Both the position numbers and the translations under genes were made by a program. 6,365 bases of DNA, from NCBI GenBank assembly GCA_030040475.1, contig JASHTQ010000149.1:1-6365 (forward strand), given 5' to 3'. How positions within the stretch are numbered: the first letter of the stretch is position 1; each line of letters opens with the position of its first letter. The notes below the pieces were generated by a model. That model was not told the origin of the DNA, made no database searches, and saw only the letters and a list, made by a program, of their open reading frames with translations. The DNA comes from Streptosporangiaceae bacterium (GTDB lineage: Bacteria; Actinomycetota; Actinomycetes; Streptosporangiales; Streptosporangiaceae). This document shows, piece after piece, positions 51 to 5,790 of the stretch.

Positions 51-2777
51 TCATCGGCGTGGGTCCCACCTGCATAGCCTGCGCACGTCGCAGCGGTGGC
101 AGGGGTGGCCTGGGCGGGCGCGGAAGTCCCGGTCGCGCAGGCCGCGCACGGTGTCCTCGACGATCCGCTCGCTGGCTTTGATCGCCTGGGGTGAGACATC
201 GACGGGATCCCGGTCCGCGGCCTTGAGGTCGTGGACGTAGGCGGCCCGTACGTTCAGGCCTTCCCGGCGGCCGGCGTTCGTGTAGACGGCGAGCTGGAGC
301 GCGTAGTCGTCGCGGGCTTCCTCGTCGGTGGACGTCTTGTAGTCCACGATGGCCAGCGACTCGATCTCTCCGCCCTCCTTGTCCAGGATGACGTCGGCTC
401 GTCCGGTGATGATCGCCGTGGGCAGATGGAGCTCGAACGGCCGCTCGGTCTCCCAGACGCGCCACAGGTCGTCGTCGTACTCGGTCATGTACGAGGACAG
501 GAGCTGCCGGGCTGCCTCCTTCAGCTGGTGGTGGGCGGGCTTGCTCGCCGCGGGCAGGAAGAAGCCCTCATCGAGCATCCGCCACACCTCCTGGTAGTCC
601 GGCGGACGCCCGTGCCGGAGCGTGTACTCCGCCATCGCCCGGAGGATGTGGTGGACCGCCTTGCCGTATCCCAGTTCTGGCGCGAGGAAGGGCTGGAAGC
701 CGAGCAGGTTGCGGAGGCGGTACGCGAAGCCGCAGGAACGGTAGGCGGCTAGCTCGCTGAACGTGATCGTGATCGGCTCGTCCGCATCTTCCCTGACGAT
801 CCGGTCGACTGGCGGGAGCGGCAGCGGCGGCTTGACCGCGTGGCCGGTCACTTCCAGGTGATACGGCGAGGCGGCGACGCGGTTCTTGATCCGCTCATGC
901 CGGGACAGGGACAGCCAGTCACGCGCCCGGGTCATCGCGACATAGAACAGGCGCCGCTCGTCGGCGTCGGAGCCCTCGTACCGTGCCGGGTTGAACAGGT
1001 GCCGCGGGACCAGCCAGTCCTGCGGGCGGCCCGTTCTTGACGAAGGGAATCGGTTCTTGGTCAGCGACGGCACGAACACCGCGCGCCACTCCAGGCCCTT
1101 GGCCTTGTGGACGGTGGTGAGGTCGACCGCGTCGACCAGCACGTCGGGCTCGCCGTCGAAGTCCTCGTAAGCGCCCTTGGCGTAGTTCGCGACGTAGATG
1201 GCCAGGTTGCCGTAGTACCAAGGTCCCCGGTCCTGGCCGCCGATCTGAGTGCCAGGCTGCTCAGGGTCCGGCCTGCTGCGCCTGCGAACCGACTCGTAGT
1301 CGGCCAGGATGGACGAGCATCTTGCCAGCGTGCCGAGACGCGAGCTCATCATCAGGTCATCCGGGTCCCAGGTGGCCACGCCGATATCGGCGAGCAGTTC
1401 GTAGAAATCGCCGACCAGGTTGACCGGGCGCTCATCGCTGGGCACGCTCGCCTTCAGAGCGGACAGCCGGCTCCGGATCGCTCGGCTTCTCCCGGCGTCC
1501 AGCTGGTAGAGATCGTCGTAGTCGGCGAAGACCTCCTCGGCTGTGGGCTCCTCCCCCCAGCCGTACGGGTCGGGGGTCCAGCTATGACCGGCCAGCCAGG
1601 CGTAGGTCTTGCCGAACAGCCGCGCCTCGGGGCGGGCGAACAGGCCGGTCCGCCCGGCAGGCTGGACCGGGACACCGTGTGCATCGAAGGCCTCAAGCAG
1701 CGCGGGGTACGCCACGCGACCGCGCACCAGGACGGCGACATCACGGTAGGGCAGCCCAGCGGAATGGAGCCGCTGGATCGTCTCGGCGATCCAGTCGCAC
1801 TCCTCGGCCTCGGTCCCGGCGGCCCAGGTGACGACCTCGACGCCGGCCGGGTCGCGTACGACGAGCATCTCCTTGTCCAGGCGACCTTGGATCGAGCGGG
1901 CGAACGCCGTCGCCGCCTCGACTATGCGCGGGCGGCTGCGCCGGTTTTCCGTGATCGTGAAGGTGCGCACGCCCGGGTAGCGGGTGGCGAACTCGACGAT
2001 GTTGCGGACGTCCGAGCCGCGCCACTGGTAGATGGCCTGGTCATCGTCGCCGACTACGCAAAGCTCGACGTCGCGGCCGGCCAGCAGCCTGATCAGGCGC
2101 TCCTGGGCTGGGTTGACGTCCTGGTATTCGTCGACGATCAGGTGCCGGAGCGTCGCGTGCACCACGCCCGCCACCTCGGGCTTCTCCAGCTCGGCGACGG
2201 CGCGGGAGATCAGCTGCCCGTAGGTGAGCAGCCGGAACCGCTCGAGTAGCTCGTAGAAATGCTCCGCCATGCCGCGCAATGGCTCGTTCAGCTCAGTGAG
2301 CGGAATGAGCTCGTTTTCCACGACTTCCAGGTTGGTGAGGAAGGCGCGGATGGATGCGAACAGCTTGCCGGTGAGGTTCTTAAGGCCCAGGGCGGGCTCT
2401 TCCCGGCACAGGAACGCGGTCAGGCGGCGCTCATCCAGCACGTCGAACGTCTCGTACCGGGGCACGTGCTGCTGGAGCAGGCGGAAGCAGTACGCATGAA
2501 TCGTCCCCACGAACGTCGCGCCCAGCCGGTCAAGCGCTTGTGTCCCGAACCGCTCCTCGACGCGGGCGGAGATCCGGGCCTTCAATTCCTCGGCCGCCCG
2601 CTCGGTGAATGTGAACGCGATGATGCTCGCCGGATCCGCGCCGCCGGCCATGAGTTCGGCGAAACGCTGGGCGACCACCTCGGTCTTGCCGGAACCCGCG
2701 GACGCAATGATCTGAAGATGCGATCCCCGGTGGCGTACCGCTGCCAGCGCGTCGCCAGCCAAAACGGGCGCGGTCAT
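51..2777 (-). CDS. UvrD/Rep-type (SF1A) helicase fused to a RecB/AddB/Cas4-like nuclease with Fe-S cysteines
   Basis: This 908-residue protein should be an ATP-driven DNA translocase or helicase that also cuts DNA. Helicase motifs appear in order: Walker A ASAGSGKT (25-32), motif Ia AFTFTERAAEEL (54-65), GTIHAYCF (91-98), Walker B VDEYQD (215-220), motif III GDDDQAIYQWRG (243-254), motif IV at 279-286, motif V TTVHKAKGLEW (544-554) and motif VI RRLFYVAMTRAR (598-609). The C-terminal third carries PD-(D/E)XK nuclease signatures: GKAVHHIL (H699), GRADVILD (D785), VDYKT (D802, K804) and QLAVY (818-822). C672 plus CxxCx5C (C883, C886, C892) matches the iron-sulphur staple of AddB- and Cas4-type nucleases. 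The canonical N-terminal Q motif is not evident. ATG at 2777 is the only ATG or GTG in frame before an upstream stop; no Shine-Dalgarno is visible, so the mRNA may be near-leaderless. It is shorter than AdnA/AdnB and RecB. It diverges from the PurZ-like operon. The molecular function is well supported, but a DNA-repair versus defence role is undecided. Confidence 0.93.
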   Translation of the reverse strand: MTAPVLAGDALAAVRHRGSHLQIIASAGSGKTEVVAQRFAELMAGGADPASIIAFTFTERAAEELKARISARVEERFGTQALDRLGATFVGTIHAYCFRLLQQHVPRYETFDVLDERRLTAFLCREEPALGLKNLTGKLFASIRAFLTNLEVVENELIPLTELNEPLRGMAEHFYELLERFRLLTYGQLISRAVAELEKPEVAGVVHATLRHLIVDEYQDVNPAQERLIRLLAGRDVELCVVGDDDQAIYQWRGSDVRNIVEFATRYPGVRTFTITENRRSRPRIVEAATAFARSIQGRLDKEMLVVRDPAGVEVVTWAAGTEAEECDWIAETIQRLHSAGLPYRDVAVLVRGRVAYPALLEAFDAHGVPVQPAGRTGLFARPEARLFGKTYAWLAGHSWTPDPYGWGEEPTAEEVFADYDDLYQLDAGRSRAIRSRLSALKASVPSDERPVNLVGDFYELLADIGVATWDPDDLMMSSRLGTLARCSSILADYESVRRRSRPDPEQPGTQIGGQDRGPWYYGNLAIYVANYAKGAYEDFDGEPDVLVDAVDLTTVHKAKGLEWRAVFVPSLTKNRFPSSRTGRPQDWLVPRHLFNPARYEGSDADERRLFYVAMTRARDWLSLSRHERIKNRVAASPYHLEVTGHAVKPPLPLPPVDRIVREDADEPITITFSELAAYRSCGFAYRLRNLLGFQPFLAPELGYGKAVHHILRAMAEYTLRHGRPPDYQEVWRMLDEGFFLPAASKPAHHQLKEAARQLLSSYMTEYDDDLWRVWETERPFELHLPTAIITGRADVILDKEGGEIESLAIVDYKTSTDEEARDDYALQLAVYTNAGRREGLNVRAAYVHDLKAADRDPVDVSPQAIKASERIVEDTVRGLRDRDFRARPGHPCHRCDVRRLCRWDPRR

Positions 2778-2943: not shown

Positions 2944-4539
2944 ATGACGTACTCACTAGTGTTAATCCTCCTCTCCGGACCCATTGCCTCGGGTAAGACC
3001 ACCCTCGCCACGGACCTTTCGCGGCAAGTTCCAGCAGAGCACATCAGCACTTCCGGCCTCATATCGGCGCAGGCTGGCCGCGAGCTTGATCGCGGCCAGC
3101 TGCAGCGACGCGGTCTAGATACAGCGTTTCAGGGAGCCGCCTGGATTATCGACGCGATGGGACGCACCGCCAGCGGTTCGCTCGGCGAGAGAGTCGTCGT
3201 AGTCGATGCGGTCAGAACCCTGGAGCAGGTCCGGGAATTTCGGCGGGCCGGCGCGGGGACGTGGCGCATTCTGCACGTTCATCTGCGCGGTGAGGACAGT
3301 GTGCTGACCGCCCGGCATGAGGCACGCGGCGACGACGGGGGCGTGCCCTGGGAGGTCGCGATGCGGTCGCCGGCAGAGGCGGCGGCACGGCTACTGGAAG
3401 CGGAAGCCGATGTCGTCATCGACACCACGCATGTCACGCCGCACGACGTGGCAGCGCGCGTCGCGGCTCGCGTTTCGCGCATCCGGATGCGGTATGGCGA
3501 GTACGCCGATGTCCTCGTCGGCGGCCAGTGGGGCAGCGAGGGCAAGGGAAACTTGGCCTTCTTCATCGCGCCCGAGTATGACCTGCTGGTCCGGGTCGGG
3601 GCGCCGAATGCGGGCCATAAGGTGCGCACCGCGGATGGATCCGTGTACACACACAGGCAGCTTCCCAGCGGTACCCGCGCCACGGATTCCGGCTTGCTGC
3701 TCGGGGCCGGAGCCGTTATCGACCTAGAGGTCCTGATGCGTGAGATCGCCGACTGCGGTGTCTCGGCTGACAGGCTGGCGATCGATCCGGGTGCTCTCGT
3801 CATCGAAGAGGGCGACGTCCAGCGGGAAACGGGGCTGAAGCGGGCTATCGGCTCCACTGGTACCGGAGGAGGGGCCGCCGTCGCGCGGCGAATCGAGCGG
3901 CGTGGAGTCGGTGGGGCCGTACGGACGGCTAAGGACATCCCTGAGCTGGCCCCGTTCGTCCGCGACTCCGGCTCAGCGTTCGAGGAAGCGCGAGTACGGG
4001 GCGGCCGGATCTTCATCGAGGGCACCCAGGGCACCGGCCTGAGCATCCTGCACGGCTCATACCCTCACGTCACGTCTCGCGATACGACGGTGAGCACGCT
4101 GCTGGCGGAGGTCGGCCTGCCGCCTCAGCTGCTGCGCCGGGCGATCGTCGCATTCCGCAGCTACCCGATTCGCGTAGGCGGGGAGTCAGGCCCGATGGGC
4201 CGCGAGATCAGCTGGGACATGGTGGCCAGCCGGGCCGGGCTGCCGGCCGACGTTCTGAAGGACAGCGAGCGGGGCTCGGTCTCGGGCAATCAGCGCCGTG
4301 TGGCCGAGTTTTCCTGGGCTCAGCTCCGGCAGTCGGCGAGGTTGAACGGGGCAACCGACCTGGCCCTCACATTCACGGACTACATCGATGCACGCAACAG
4401 CGGCGCACGGCAATTCAGTCAGCTCACGCCGGAGACCATCGAATTCGTCCATGAGATGGAGAGCGTCGCCGGCGCGCCTGTCTCATTCATCTCCGCGAGC
4501 TTCGACGGCCGTGGCCCAATCGACCGGCGGCTATGGTGA
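2944..4539 (+). CDS. P-loop kinase-like domain fused to a PurZ-like adenylosuccinate synthetase (catalytic Asp replaced by Ser)
   Basis: The 531-residue product has two domains. Residues 5-180 resemble an NMP-kinase or dephospho-CoA-kinase fold: Walker A GPIASGKTT (12-20), a buried VVVDAVR strand, an arginine-containing segment ARHEARGD, and a closing VVIDTTHVTPHDV. Residues 190-531 match adenylosuccinate synthetase at the short archaeal/phage size: GGQWGSEGKGN (193-203), NAGHKV (H225), LPSG, IGSTGTGGG (302-310), EGTQGTGLSILHG (from 359), YPIRVG and SVSGNQRR (445-452). E. coli PurA has GDEGKGK, with D13 as catalytic base; here that position is S198, while K201 and the catalytic histidine H225 are kept. 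Serine at this site is typical of phage PurZ, which condenses dGMP with aspartate. I infer that activity or a related one; orthodox PurA activity is unlikely. ATG 2944 places the first strand directly before the P-loop; an in-frame TTG lies at 2935. It forms an operon with the gene 4 bases downstream. Confidence 0.85.
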   Translation: MTYSLVLILLSGPIASGKTTLATDLSRQVPAEHISTSGLISAQAGRELDRGQLQRRGLDTAFQGAAWIIDAMGRTASGSLGERVVVVDAVRTLEQVREFRRAGAGTWRILHVHLRGEDSVLTARHEARGDDGGVPWEVAMRSPAEAAARLLEAEADVVIDTTHVTPHDVAARVAARVSRIRMRYGEYADVLVGGQWGSEGKGNLAFFIAPEYDLLVRVGAPNAGHKVRTADGSVYTHRQLPSGTRATDSGLLLGAGAVIDLEVLMREIADCGVSADRLAIDPGALVIEEGDVQRETGLKRAIGSTGTGGGAAVARRIERRGVGGAVRTAKDIPELAPFVRDSGSAFEEARVRGGRIFIEGTQGTGLSILHGSYPHVTSRDTTVSTLLAEVGLPPQLLRRAIVAFRSYPIRVGGESGPMGREISWDMVASRAGLPADVLKDSERGSVSGNQRRVAEFSWAQLRQSARLNGATDLALTFTDYIDARNSGARQFSQLTPETIEFVHEMESVAGAPVSFISASFDGRGPIDRRLW

Positions 4540-4543
4540 GCGA

Positions 4544-5476
4544 GTGCGGCACAACTTCGTCAACGACATCGGCGACTACGCCAAGTACGCCCTGCTCCGT
4601 GCGCTTTGCGCAAGCGGCCAGCCGGGGATGCGGCTTGGCGTCATCTGGTACCTGACCGAGCACGTCGAGCGCAACAACGACGGCCGCAAGCGCGCTCATC
4701 TCGTCACCACCGGGTGGGAAGACCTTGACCCCGATCTGCTCGCCATCATGAGGCAGGTCGAGAATGCCACGACGGACCCGGATCAGCTCAATGTCAGGCT
4801 GATTGAGACCGCGGGAATTCTCCCGCGTGGTACCGCTTACTTCGCAGAACCGCTGCCGTACGCACTGGGGACTGCTGGGCAGCGGGCGGCGGACAGGACC
4901 GCCTGGTTCGAGCGGGCGCGTAACGCGGTGGCCGACTGCGATCTGGTGTTCCTTGACCCGGACAACGGACTCGAGGTCCTGTCCGTCTCTGTTGCGTCGC
5001 CGCTTGCAGGCAAGTACGCGATGGTCGCTGAAGTTGCGGCGCTGCTGCACAAAGGTGCAGCCGTCGTGCTGTATCAGCACGGCAGCCGCACGCCCTGGCA
5101 GGTGCAACGAGAGCGTGTCTGCGCGCAGATAGCCGCCGGAACCGATCGGGCAGTTGCGATACGCTCACTGCGGTTCGGAGCCTTCGGCGCCAGGGCGTTC
5201 TTCTGCATCACGAGCGATCGGCGAATGTCCGATGTCGTCGAGGACGGACTGGGCCAGCTTCGCCGGCGGGTTGCCGCGTGGGATAAATCGAGGTACCTCT
5301 TGATCGAGTTACCGGCCCGCGAAGCCCGTGCCGATTGCCTGCCGGGTCAGCGATCGTACAGGCCGAGCGCCGAGGCAATGTCCGGCGGGAAGTATCGTTC
5401 CGATTTGAGGACTTTGCCGTCCTCCCTTATCAGGGGCTTTCCGTCGCCGGTCAGCTTGCTCATGTTGGACCGGTGA
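4544..5476 (+). CDS. Conserved-looking protein of unknown function with FVNDIGDYAKY and FLDPDNGLE motifs
   Basis: I recognise the motif pattern from proteins usually left unnamed, but not a function. The 310-residue product opens with FVNDIGDYAKYALLRAL (5-21), continues with a GVIWYL strand, and has DLVFLDPDNGLE ending at residue 144 and VVLYQHGSR around 174-182. The acidic DPDNGLE turn after a hydrophobic strand resembles the end of a Rossmann-type strand, as in some methyltransferases or nucleotide-binding enzymes; that is inference only. No signal peptide or membrane segment is visible. GTG 4544 is preferred because the motif begins at once and GGTGAG (4535-4540) lies just upstream; in-frame GTG 4511 would overlap the previous gene. 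The 4-base gap implies translational coupling with the PurZ-like gene. The recognisable part seems to end near residue 257; the remaining tail of about 50 residues mostly overlaps the MazG-like gene antisense. Confidence 0.8.
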   Translation: MRHNFVNDIGDYAKYALLRALCASGQPGMRLGVIWYLTEHVERNNDGRKRAHLVTTGWEDLDPDLLAIMRQVENATTDPDQLNVRLIETAGILPRGTAYFAEPLPYALGTAGQRAADRTAWFERARNAVADCDLVFLDPDNGLEVLSVSVASPLAGKYAMVAEVAALLHKGAAVVLYQHGSRTPWQVQRERVCAQIAAGTDRAVAIRSLRFGAFGARAFFCITSDRRMSDVVEDGLGQLRRRVAAWDKSRYLLIELPAREARADCLPGQRSYRPSAEAMSGGKYRSDLRTLPSSLIRGFPSPVSLLMLDR

Positions 5477-5790
5477 ACCTCCCGCAGGACCGAGTCCAGG
5501 TCGATACCGTAGGTCAGCGCCGTGCCGTAGATCACGTAGACGATATCGGCTAGCGCGTCGGCGATCCCGATAAGATCAGACTTCCCGGCCGCGGTGACGA
5601 ATTCGTCGACTTCTTCGGCCAGCAGGGCAACACGGAGCTTCACCAGGTCGTCGTCGATTTCGGTACTCGGGAACTGCTGCATGGGCAGGTTGAACGCGCC
5701 GTGAAACTCGGCGACCGCGGCCGCCGTATCGAGCGGCTCACCCAGTTCGCCAGGCATGCCGCCGCGGCGCTGTGCTGAGGTAATAGACAT
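5347..5790 (-). CDS. MazG-like nucleoside triphosphate pyrophosphohydrolase
   Basis: Enzymes of this all-alpha family split (d)NTPs to (d)NMP and pyrophosphate in the cytoplasm, using Mg ions held by acidic residues. The 147-residue protein shows the first metal-binding helix LLAEEVDEF (E59, E60, E63), the second, IADALADIVYVIYG (D78, D82), and HRSNMSKL (106-113), whose N-x-x-K fits the phosphate-contacting segment. The tail, DGKPLIREDGKVLK then YFPPDI, is characteristic of small MazG-like proteins. It is a single-domain form, far shorter than the two-domain MazG. Start ATG 5790 is well supported by GGAGG six bases upstream; an internal ATG at 5757 lacks that support. It converges on the preceding gene and overlaps it by 130 bases. 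Substrate cannot be read from the sequence. Beside a PurZ-like gene, a dGTP-to-dGMP role like that of phage MazZ is attractive, but general nucleotide house-cleaning is equally possible. Confidence 0.88.
   Translation of the reverse strand: MSITSAQRRGGMPGELGEPLDTAAAVAEFHGAFNLPMQQFPSTEIDDDLVKLRVALLAEEVDEFVTAAGKSDLIGIADALADIVYVIYGTALTYGIDLDSVLREVHRSNMSKLTGDGKPLIREDGKVLKSERYFPPDIASALGLYDR

Follow-up and report, generated by a model that had tools for sequence, protein, structure and literature searches.

A kinase-fused relative of PurZ in a Streptosporangiaceae bacterium and its place among serine-type synthetases

2-Aminoadenine (Z) is a stand-in for the DNA letter A and is made via phage enzymes. 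A contig of a Streptosporangiaceae bacterium (JASHTQ010000149.1 in assembly GCA_030040475.1), analysed here over its whole 6,365 bp (the window), raises the question of whether cells also make nucleotides of this kind. One of its genes encodes an adenylate-kinase-like domain fused to a synthetase domain of the PurA/PurZ fold, with a serine at the place of the PurA aspartate Asp13. As judged by sequence comparison, such fusions constitute a third, mainly cellular branch of Ser-type synthetases beside phage PurZ and PurZ0.

The phosphate loop and the fused kinase

The gene and its two domains are as follows.
2944..4539, + strand: 531-residue fusion gene, adenylate-kinase-like P-loop domain plus PurZ-type synthetase domain (open reading frame, Pfam)
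2944..3480, + strand: N-terminal kinase domain, residues 1-175, Walker A motif GPIASGKT at residues 12-19
3508..4536, + strand: PurZ-type (PurA/PurZ-fold) domain, residues 189-531, Pfam span 189-529 (tree, residue tables)

The reading frame matches the Pfam families AAA_33 (2e-10) and Adenylsucc_synt (1e-46, reaching the superfamily cut-off). An earlier note, made from the letters of the window, had reported a phosphate loop reading GGQWGSEGKGN, and the translation bears this out, with V192 at 3517, G193 at 3520 and N203 at 3550. The start at 3520 on the + strand stands, but the loop ends at 3552, as the 3549 given earlier stops at G202. The serine codon that had been placed at 3535-3537 (AGC) is Ser198, at the place of PurA Asp13 and of Ser23 in S-2L PurZ, and the active-site motifs said to be retained are present (NAGH, residues 222-225; EGTQG, residues 359-363).

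The serine runs through the family. A protein search scored 7,994 candidates and gave 2,839 relatives, and among the best 120 of these 2,839, serine was found in all 116 loops that could be read (the window protein included), the other four being proteins of 298-398 residues in which the loop was not found. Serine also occupies this place in 77 of 77 synthetase domains of the fetched loci (the window and L007-L085, four loci unparsed), as well as in the four unparsed loci (L045, L055, L060 and L071). These loci came via two scan patterns, one of which contains the serine; 17 of 17 domains beyond the reach of that pattern still have it. Thus, the loop change goes beyond chance. The serine is accompanied by the motif PIRV, which is found in all 37 fusions, all 14 lone Ser rows, all four PurZ rows, all four PurZ0 rows and the Bacillus phage row, whereas all 18 Asp rows read TRV or SRV; Ile thus replaces Thr in the RV loop of every fusion examined (37). 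Furthermore, the loop after PIRV is longer, with 7-17 residues in Ser rows vs five in Asp rows. In the available part of a study of S-2L PurZ, the base pocket is named, and the RV-loop Val and the insertion are tied to ribonucleotide rejection (PMC8342488).

The N-terminal domain is, by its Walker A motif (found in 79 of 79 fusion genes read) and its full-domain profile match, a predicted P-loop domain of the nucleoside monophosphate kinase-like type. The best full-domain matches of its profile in the PDB were AdkA-like 3lw7 (7e-11) and SSO1041 3h0k (8e-11), followed by adenylate kinases.

Placement and spread of the fusions

In the main tree (52 rows, 334 columns, the Ser column dropped, LG+C20+F+G4), a branch with support 100/99 separates 40 Ser enzymes from 12 Asp enzymes. 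The Ser clade holds phage PurZ, phage PurZ0, other viral rows, and bacterial and archaeal rows; within it, 20 fusions form a branch of their own (100/99), as do phage PurZ (100/99) and PurZ0 (100/100). The closest partner of the window in the tree is L007, a locus from a Streptosporangiaceae metagenome-assembled genome (pair support 100/100). The viral rows L088 and L093 branch first among the fusions with weak support (91/68), and the cellular rows are not nested inside phage PurZ or PurZ0. A 79-row FastTree gave the same main groups at lower support (fusions, 0.73), and the split of Ser rows from the archaeal PurA L150, at 0.465 there, reached 100/99 in the 52-row tree on fewer rows. Two viral lone Ser enzymes (L100 and L113) form a separate long branch that is not placed with PurZ, PurZ0 or the fusions.

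The separation from true PurA on which the earlier note had staked its claim is thus seen, and its idea of a PurZ-like enzyme outside a phage is supported by membership of the Ser clade and by a PHROG search of the window, which matched no phage structural or packaging genes and returned the synthetase, MazG, helicase, exonuclease and one weak ATPase. The reading as an ordinary PurA with a chance change was rejected on the basis of the tree and the family-wide serine. By its score of 190.8 bits against the strict PurZ model (NCBIfam NF038379, cut-off 300) and its position in a separate branch, outside phage PurZ, the window enzyme is also predicted not to be PurZ in the strict sense, and it lies outside the PurZ0 branch. 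The PurA models fall below their cut-offs (PRK04293, archaeal and the best NCBIfam score, 274 of 368 bits; TIGR00184, 196 of 395.55 bits), and the catalytic Asp13 of PurA is a serine.

With phage PurZ (S-2L, phiVC8 and SH-Ab 15497), the fusions share the serine, PIRV with the longer loop and, as in S-2L, a MazG-type neighbour; however, they differ in their own branch, fused kinase, cellular genomes, a loop reading GSEGKG rather than GSTGKG, and an identity of about 27-33%. Phage PurZ0 (Archimedes, Wayne and Goodman) shares the GGQ(F/Y)GSE loop and PIRVxGxSG, but has its own branch, GSEAKG in place of GSEGKG, no fused kinase and phage genomes as its setting. Archaeal short PurA (PDB 5k7x and 2d7u) shares the fold and the best database score, but has Asp13 and TRVGAGPFPTE and falls outside the Ser clade.

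Fusion appears to be common, as more than 150 residues precede the loop in 104 of the 116 readable relatives among those listed. An alignment-based scan of genome contigs found at least 574 confirmed relatives, of which 79 loci were kept, from Pseudomonadota, Actinomycetota, Acidobacteriota, Chloroflexota, Myxococcota, Verrucomicrobiota, Planctomycetota and others, with four archaeal-titled records; the window protein alone as query gave no matches in genome or viral contigs. The fused profile is matched by 84 loci, one of which (L045) is split into two neighbouring frames. Among the matches listed, the closest to the window protein has 85% identity (P0002), and relatives from Streptosporangiaceae metagenome-assembled genomes have 79% (P0009) and 66% (L007). 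The distribution is patchy: among 296 genomes of the phylum of L013 (Amycolatopsis, genome G003), searched at E 1e-60, the fusion was found in G003 and a lone relative in one other, and among 150 genomes of the family of L007, only L007's own genome matched, with the best few candidates per genome scored in both searches. A full-length PurA is also present in 16 of 16 fusion genomes tested, with Asp read in 11 of the 16 host PurA loci (the 11 that were parsed). The earlier note had spoken of an apparent bacterial chromosome; the cellular setting is upheld across relatives, while a chromosome is likely yet unproven, the window fusion protein being known from this single 6,365-bp contig. The note had also overlooked the kinase domain, two of the genes described below (RlmJ-fold and MazG-type) and the large size of the family.

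No description of a kinase-PurZ fusion or operon was found in the titles and abstract starts of the papers listed by searches of open-licence PMC literature without bioRxiv preprints. The PurZ group of one published tree comprises 147 phage and four archaeal sequences, with at most two PurA sampled per prokaryotic phylum, according to the portion of that article at hand (PMC12884076). The accessible text of a paper on a phiVC8-type phage gives Solibacter usitatus, at 33%, as the best match of its PurZ (PMC4802629), which may have been a first hint that bacteria have a relative. In the part of a further article that was available, PurA, adenylosuccinate and IrrE are not mentioned (PMC9503650).

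Genes beside the fusions

Four good genes are found in the window: the fusion and the three listed here.
4544..5476, + strand: RlmJ-fold gene, open frame of 310 residues, 4 bases after the fusion stop
5347..5790, - strand: MazG/PRA-PH-type nucleotide pyrophosphohydrolase, 147 residues (Pfam PRA-PH, 2e-19)
51..2777, - strand: divergent UvrD helicase with C-terminal PD-(D/E)XK nuclease, 908 residues (UvrD-helicase, 4e-53; PDDEXK_1, 7e-27)

The frame at 4544-5476 shares 130 bases with the convergent MazG gene and extends about 50 codons beyond the end of most of its kin (237-258 residues). The UvrD helicase-nuclease is a neighbour, and it may putatively belong to a system with the fusion.

Neighbours within 6 kb were counted with profiles (E 1e-6) at the 84 fusion loci; L084 (on the same plasmid as L002) and L006 (no fusion) were left out, and contig ends cut some loci, so that 2.5 kb is available upstream in 78 and downstream in 73. 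A DUF7002 gene occurs in 81 of 84 loci, adjoining the fusion on the same strand in 76, and a gene encoding a protease of the IrrE type fused to a macrodomain (c2) in 53, adjoining in 50 and together with DUF7002 in 52. An earlier count based on gene calls had given c2 in 44 of 80 loci and DUF7002 in 68 of 80, with median gaps of 15 bp between c2 and the fusion (43 loci) and -3 bp between the fusion and DUF7002 (64 loci), which suggests an operon. The usual order, with c2 upstream and DUF7002 downstream, is kept across many phyla; Pseudomonas sp. TH43 (L027) has an operon of c2, fusion and DUF7002. Both genes are unmatched in only two of the 84 loci, the window (6,365 bp) and L007 (a contig of 6,040 bp), which retain the MazG and RlmJ-fold genes. 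Thus, the window holds a reduced form, with no DarT-like gene in reach.

The predicted structure of DUF7002 matches DarT best (DarT1 and DarT structures), with other ADP-ribosyltransferases also matched, so that DUF7002 in the related loci is assigned a predicted DarT-like ADP-ribosyltransferase fold; it also has an invariant Glu. The loci resemble DarTG in a downstream DarT-like gene and a common upstream partner with a macrodomain, but differ in the kinase-PurZ gene between the partners and in the fusion of the macrodomain to an IrrE/CapP-type protease.

Other neighbours are specific to lineages. MazG kin occur in 15 of 84 loci (13 of 15 Actinomycetota, one of Pseudomonadota, and the window), an HD phosphohydrolase in 17 (12 in Alphaproteobacteria, five on rhizobial or Agrobacterium plasmids; the rhizobial HD profile has no match in the window) and the RlmJ-fold gene in 10. 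The cyanophage S-2L Z-cluster (datZ, mazZ, purZ) likewise has a PurZ-type and a MazG-type gene, as in Actinobacteria, and an HD gene, as in rhizobia and kin; however, the MazG and HD proteins linked to the fusions are only remotely related to MazZ and DatZ, and the cellular operon has no polymerase. The best PDB kin of the window's MazG-fold gene, a candidate dGTP pyrophosphohydrolase, is DR2231; its PDB match to MazZ is biased by S-2L MazZ being a row of the profile, which leaves an identity with MazZ putative. Identification of the HD gene as DatZ was rejected (the L001 copy gives 214 bits to phrog_318 vs 31 bits to phrog_7076), and it is called an HD phosphohydrolase only. Near the fusions on rhizobial and Agrobacterium plasmids lie SIR2, AbiE, AbiJ-domain, RelA/SpoT-domain and UvrD genes.

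Three further observations concern this setting. A gene of 450-470 residues without a Pfam match (L001 11101-12459 and relatives) occurs in 14 of 80 loci, in rhizobia and kin. On a Sinorhizobium medicae plasmid (L006 5290-9931), a lone Ser-type PurZ relative stands with an HD phosphohydrolase, a weakly deoxycytidine triphosphate (dCTP)-deaminase-like protein and an adjoining BilD gene. In the phylum of L013, another lone Ser-type relative (L180 7215-10701) stands with a dCTP-deaminase-like protein, which by reading of its sequence has an apparent membrane segment, a deoxynucleoside kinase and kin of the 4544 gene.

The whole fusion is also present on ten IMG/VR viral contigs, five of which (L087, L088, L091, L092 and L101) have it near a family-A DNA polymerase (PolA). 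In L091 and L101, a uracil-DNA glycosylase (UDG)-exo-PolA protein lies about 2 kb downstream and a DnaB-like cluster gene directly upstream (Pfam evidence for L091 only), and L092 resembles this setting by gene cluster; in L087 and L088, PolA lies two called genes upstream. The phage polymerases with an N-terminal uracil-DNA glycosylase domain are at L091 12897-15887 and L101 13636-16599. L086 and L095 have the order c2-fusion-DUF7002, and L090 has fusion-DUF7002, so that these contigs look like host-type operons. The presence of the fusion in both cellular operons and phage replication settings favours one product in both, a DNA precursor.

Candidate product and role

Kinship with PurZ and PurZ0 points to guanosine or deoxyguanosine monophosphate, (d)GMP, as the substrate. 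The PurZ-type domain would join L-aspartate to (d)GMP with a nucleoside triphosphate, giving N6-succino-2-amino-(deoxy)adenylate, which host PurB could convert to a Z nucleotide. The N-terminal kinase would phosphorylate the product or make the dGMP substrate; the linked MazG of Actinobacteria would supply dGMP from its triphosphate (dGTP), as MazZ does in Z phages, and the linked HD phosphohydrolase of rhizobia and kin would remove competing deoxyadenosine tri- or monophosphate (dATP or dAMP), as does DatZ. We infer dGMP as substrate, a Z nucleotide as product, and the kinase and conflict roles; the enzyme most probably serves in a DarTG-like operon of anti-phage or toxin-antidote kind, where a nucleotide of the Z type would poison or mark DNA synthesis, the anti-phage role being presumed. 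This use is suggested by the DarT-like gene that adjoins the fusion in most genomes, the nearby macrodomain partner (53 of 84), the defence-type genes near plasmid fusions, BilD near the L006 enzyme, and patchiness. By a small measure, it is probable that the enzyme makes 2-aminoadenine nucleotides in cells, as part of a conflict operon resembling DarTG. More tentative, and held at somewhat less than even, is the wider proposal of a new prokaryotic conflict system comprising a protease-macrodomain protein of the IrrE type, a kinase-PurZ producing a nucleotide of the 2-aminoadenine type, a DarT-like ADP-ribosyltransferase and lineage-specific deoxynucleoside triphosphate (dNTP) hydrolases.

Several points weigh against a Z-nucleotide synthase in a conflict operon. 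We know of no Z-specific polymerase in cells. A profile search found neither DUF7002 nor a macrodomain gene in the window's 6,365 bp. The c2 macrodomain recalls the thymidine-type DarTG2, whereas the best fold match of DUF7002 is the guanine-type DarT1; a NADAR domain is the antidote known for DarT1. Phage deoxynucleoside monophosphate (dNMP)-phosphatase families match the HD protein far better than the dATPase family that includes DatZ. Of the plasmid copies, one is flanked by operons for sugar transport and another stands beside siderophore genes. PADLOC left the fusion unmatched at E 0.01 and DUF7002 at E 0.1, and its count at E 1e-20 (53 families among 109 neighbour proteins vs 21 among 98 controls) is a hint only, as the figures are families rather than proteins and BREX genes fall within the controls; the samples were random draws of 109 of 143 neighbours and 98 of 149 controls of 200-1400 residues, from 14 genomes each with one control stretch per genome. 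Furthermore, the window has seven of seven S-2L PurZ base-pocket residues, but Asp-type PurA rows share all of them except the serine, so the pocket does not decide the substrate. At the PurA R303 place, the window has Asn449 instead of Arg, and 16 of 37 fusions lack the Arg; 21 of 37 keep it, as does one of four phage PurZ rows, and it is also present in L035 from Terriglobus roseus. Loss of the Arg is thus ruled out as a family hallmark, and its variation speaks against one uniform substrate, which may differ within the family.

The retained Arg also lends some weight to an alternative, that the PurZ-fold enzyme acts on another guanine-type substrate, such as GMP, a signalling nucleotide or a DarT-made guanine adduct, so that it would yield a signal for the macrodomain protein to read, or take part in repair, rather than make a DNA precursor. 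This is possible but rather unlikely, as free deoxynucleotides are suggested by the MazG, HD, deoxynucleoside-kinase and dCTP-deaminase-like genes nearby, and the viral contigs have the fusion near DNA polymerase. That prophages or satellites left behind a phage Z gene that does nothing for the cell is very improbable: the ten viral contigs with a complete fusion (in some cases close to genes of phage replication), the patchy spread and the weakly supported early position of L088 and L093 would fit it, but in many phyla the fusion stays in a compact operon with a DarT-like gene and often a macrodomain gene, and the cellular rows lie outside phage PurZ and PurZ0. Slightly less probable still is a true PurA paralogue that makes adenosine monophosphate (AMP) from inosine monophosphate (IMP) and tolerates the Asp to Ser change, as the archaeal PurA model scores best, but the tree placement, the serine in every readable listed relative, the RV-loop Ile of all 37 fusions and the normal PurA alongside argue otherwise. 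An enzyme of nucleoside natural products is the least credible reading, since the PurA-like protein of a 7-deazapurine-type cluster in R. leguminosarum keeps Asp and groups with archaeal PurA, and no such pathway genes were found in annotated fusion neighbourhoods. That plasmid cluster (L178 5369-11623: FolE, an Asp-type PurA-like protein, PurB, QueE, IMP dehydrogenase, a nitrile hydratase subunit and QueC) resembles a pathway to 7-deazapurine nucleosides.

The database names of the fusion genes are adenylosuccinate synthetase or synthase, so that pathway counts may mistake them for purA. Synthesis of Z nucleotides has so far been known as a phage trait, and a third, mostly cellular branch changes where to look for it and opens the origin of PurZ to testing. 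The regular association with a DarT-like gene, and often with a macrodomain gene, offers a direct and cheap test for a new type of nucleotide-based defence. If the proposed conflict system is real, it would be the first case of cells using the Z-nucleotide route, and phages may have taken PurZ from it, or the reverse.
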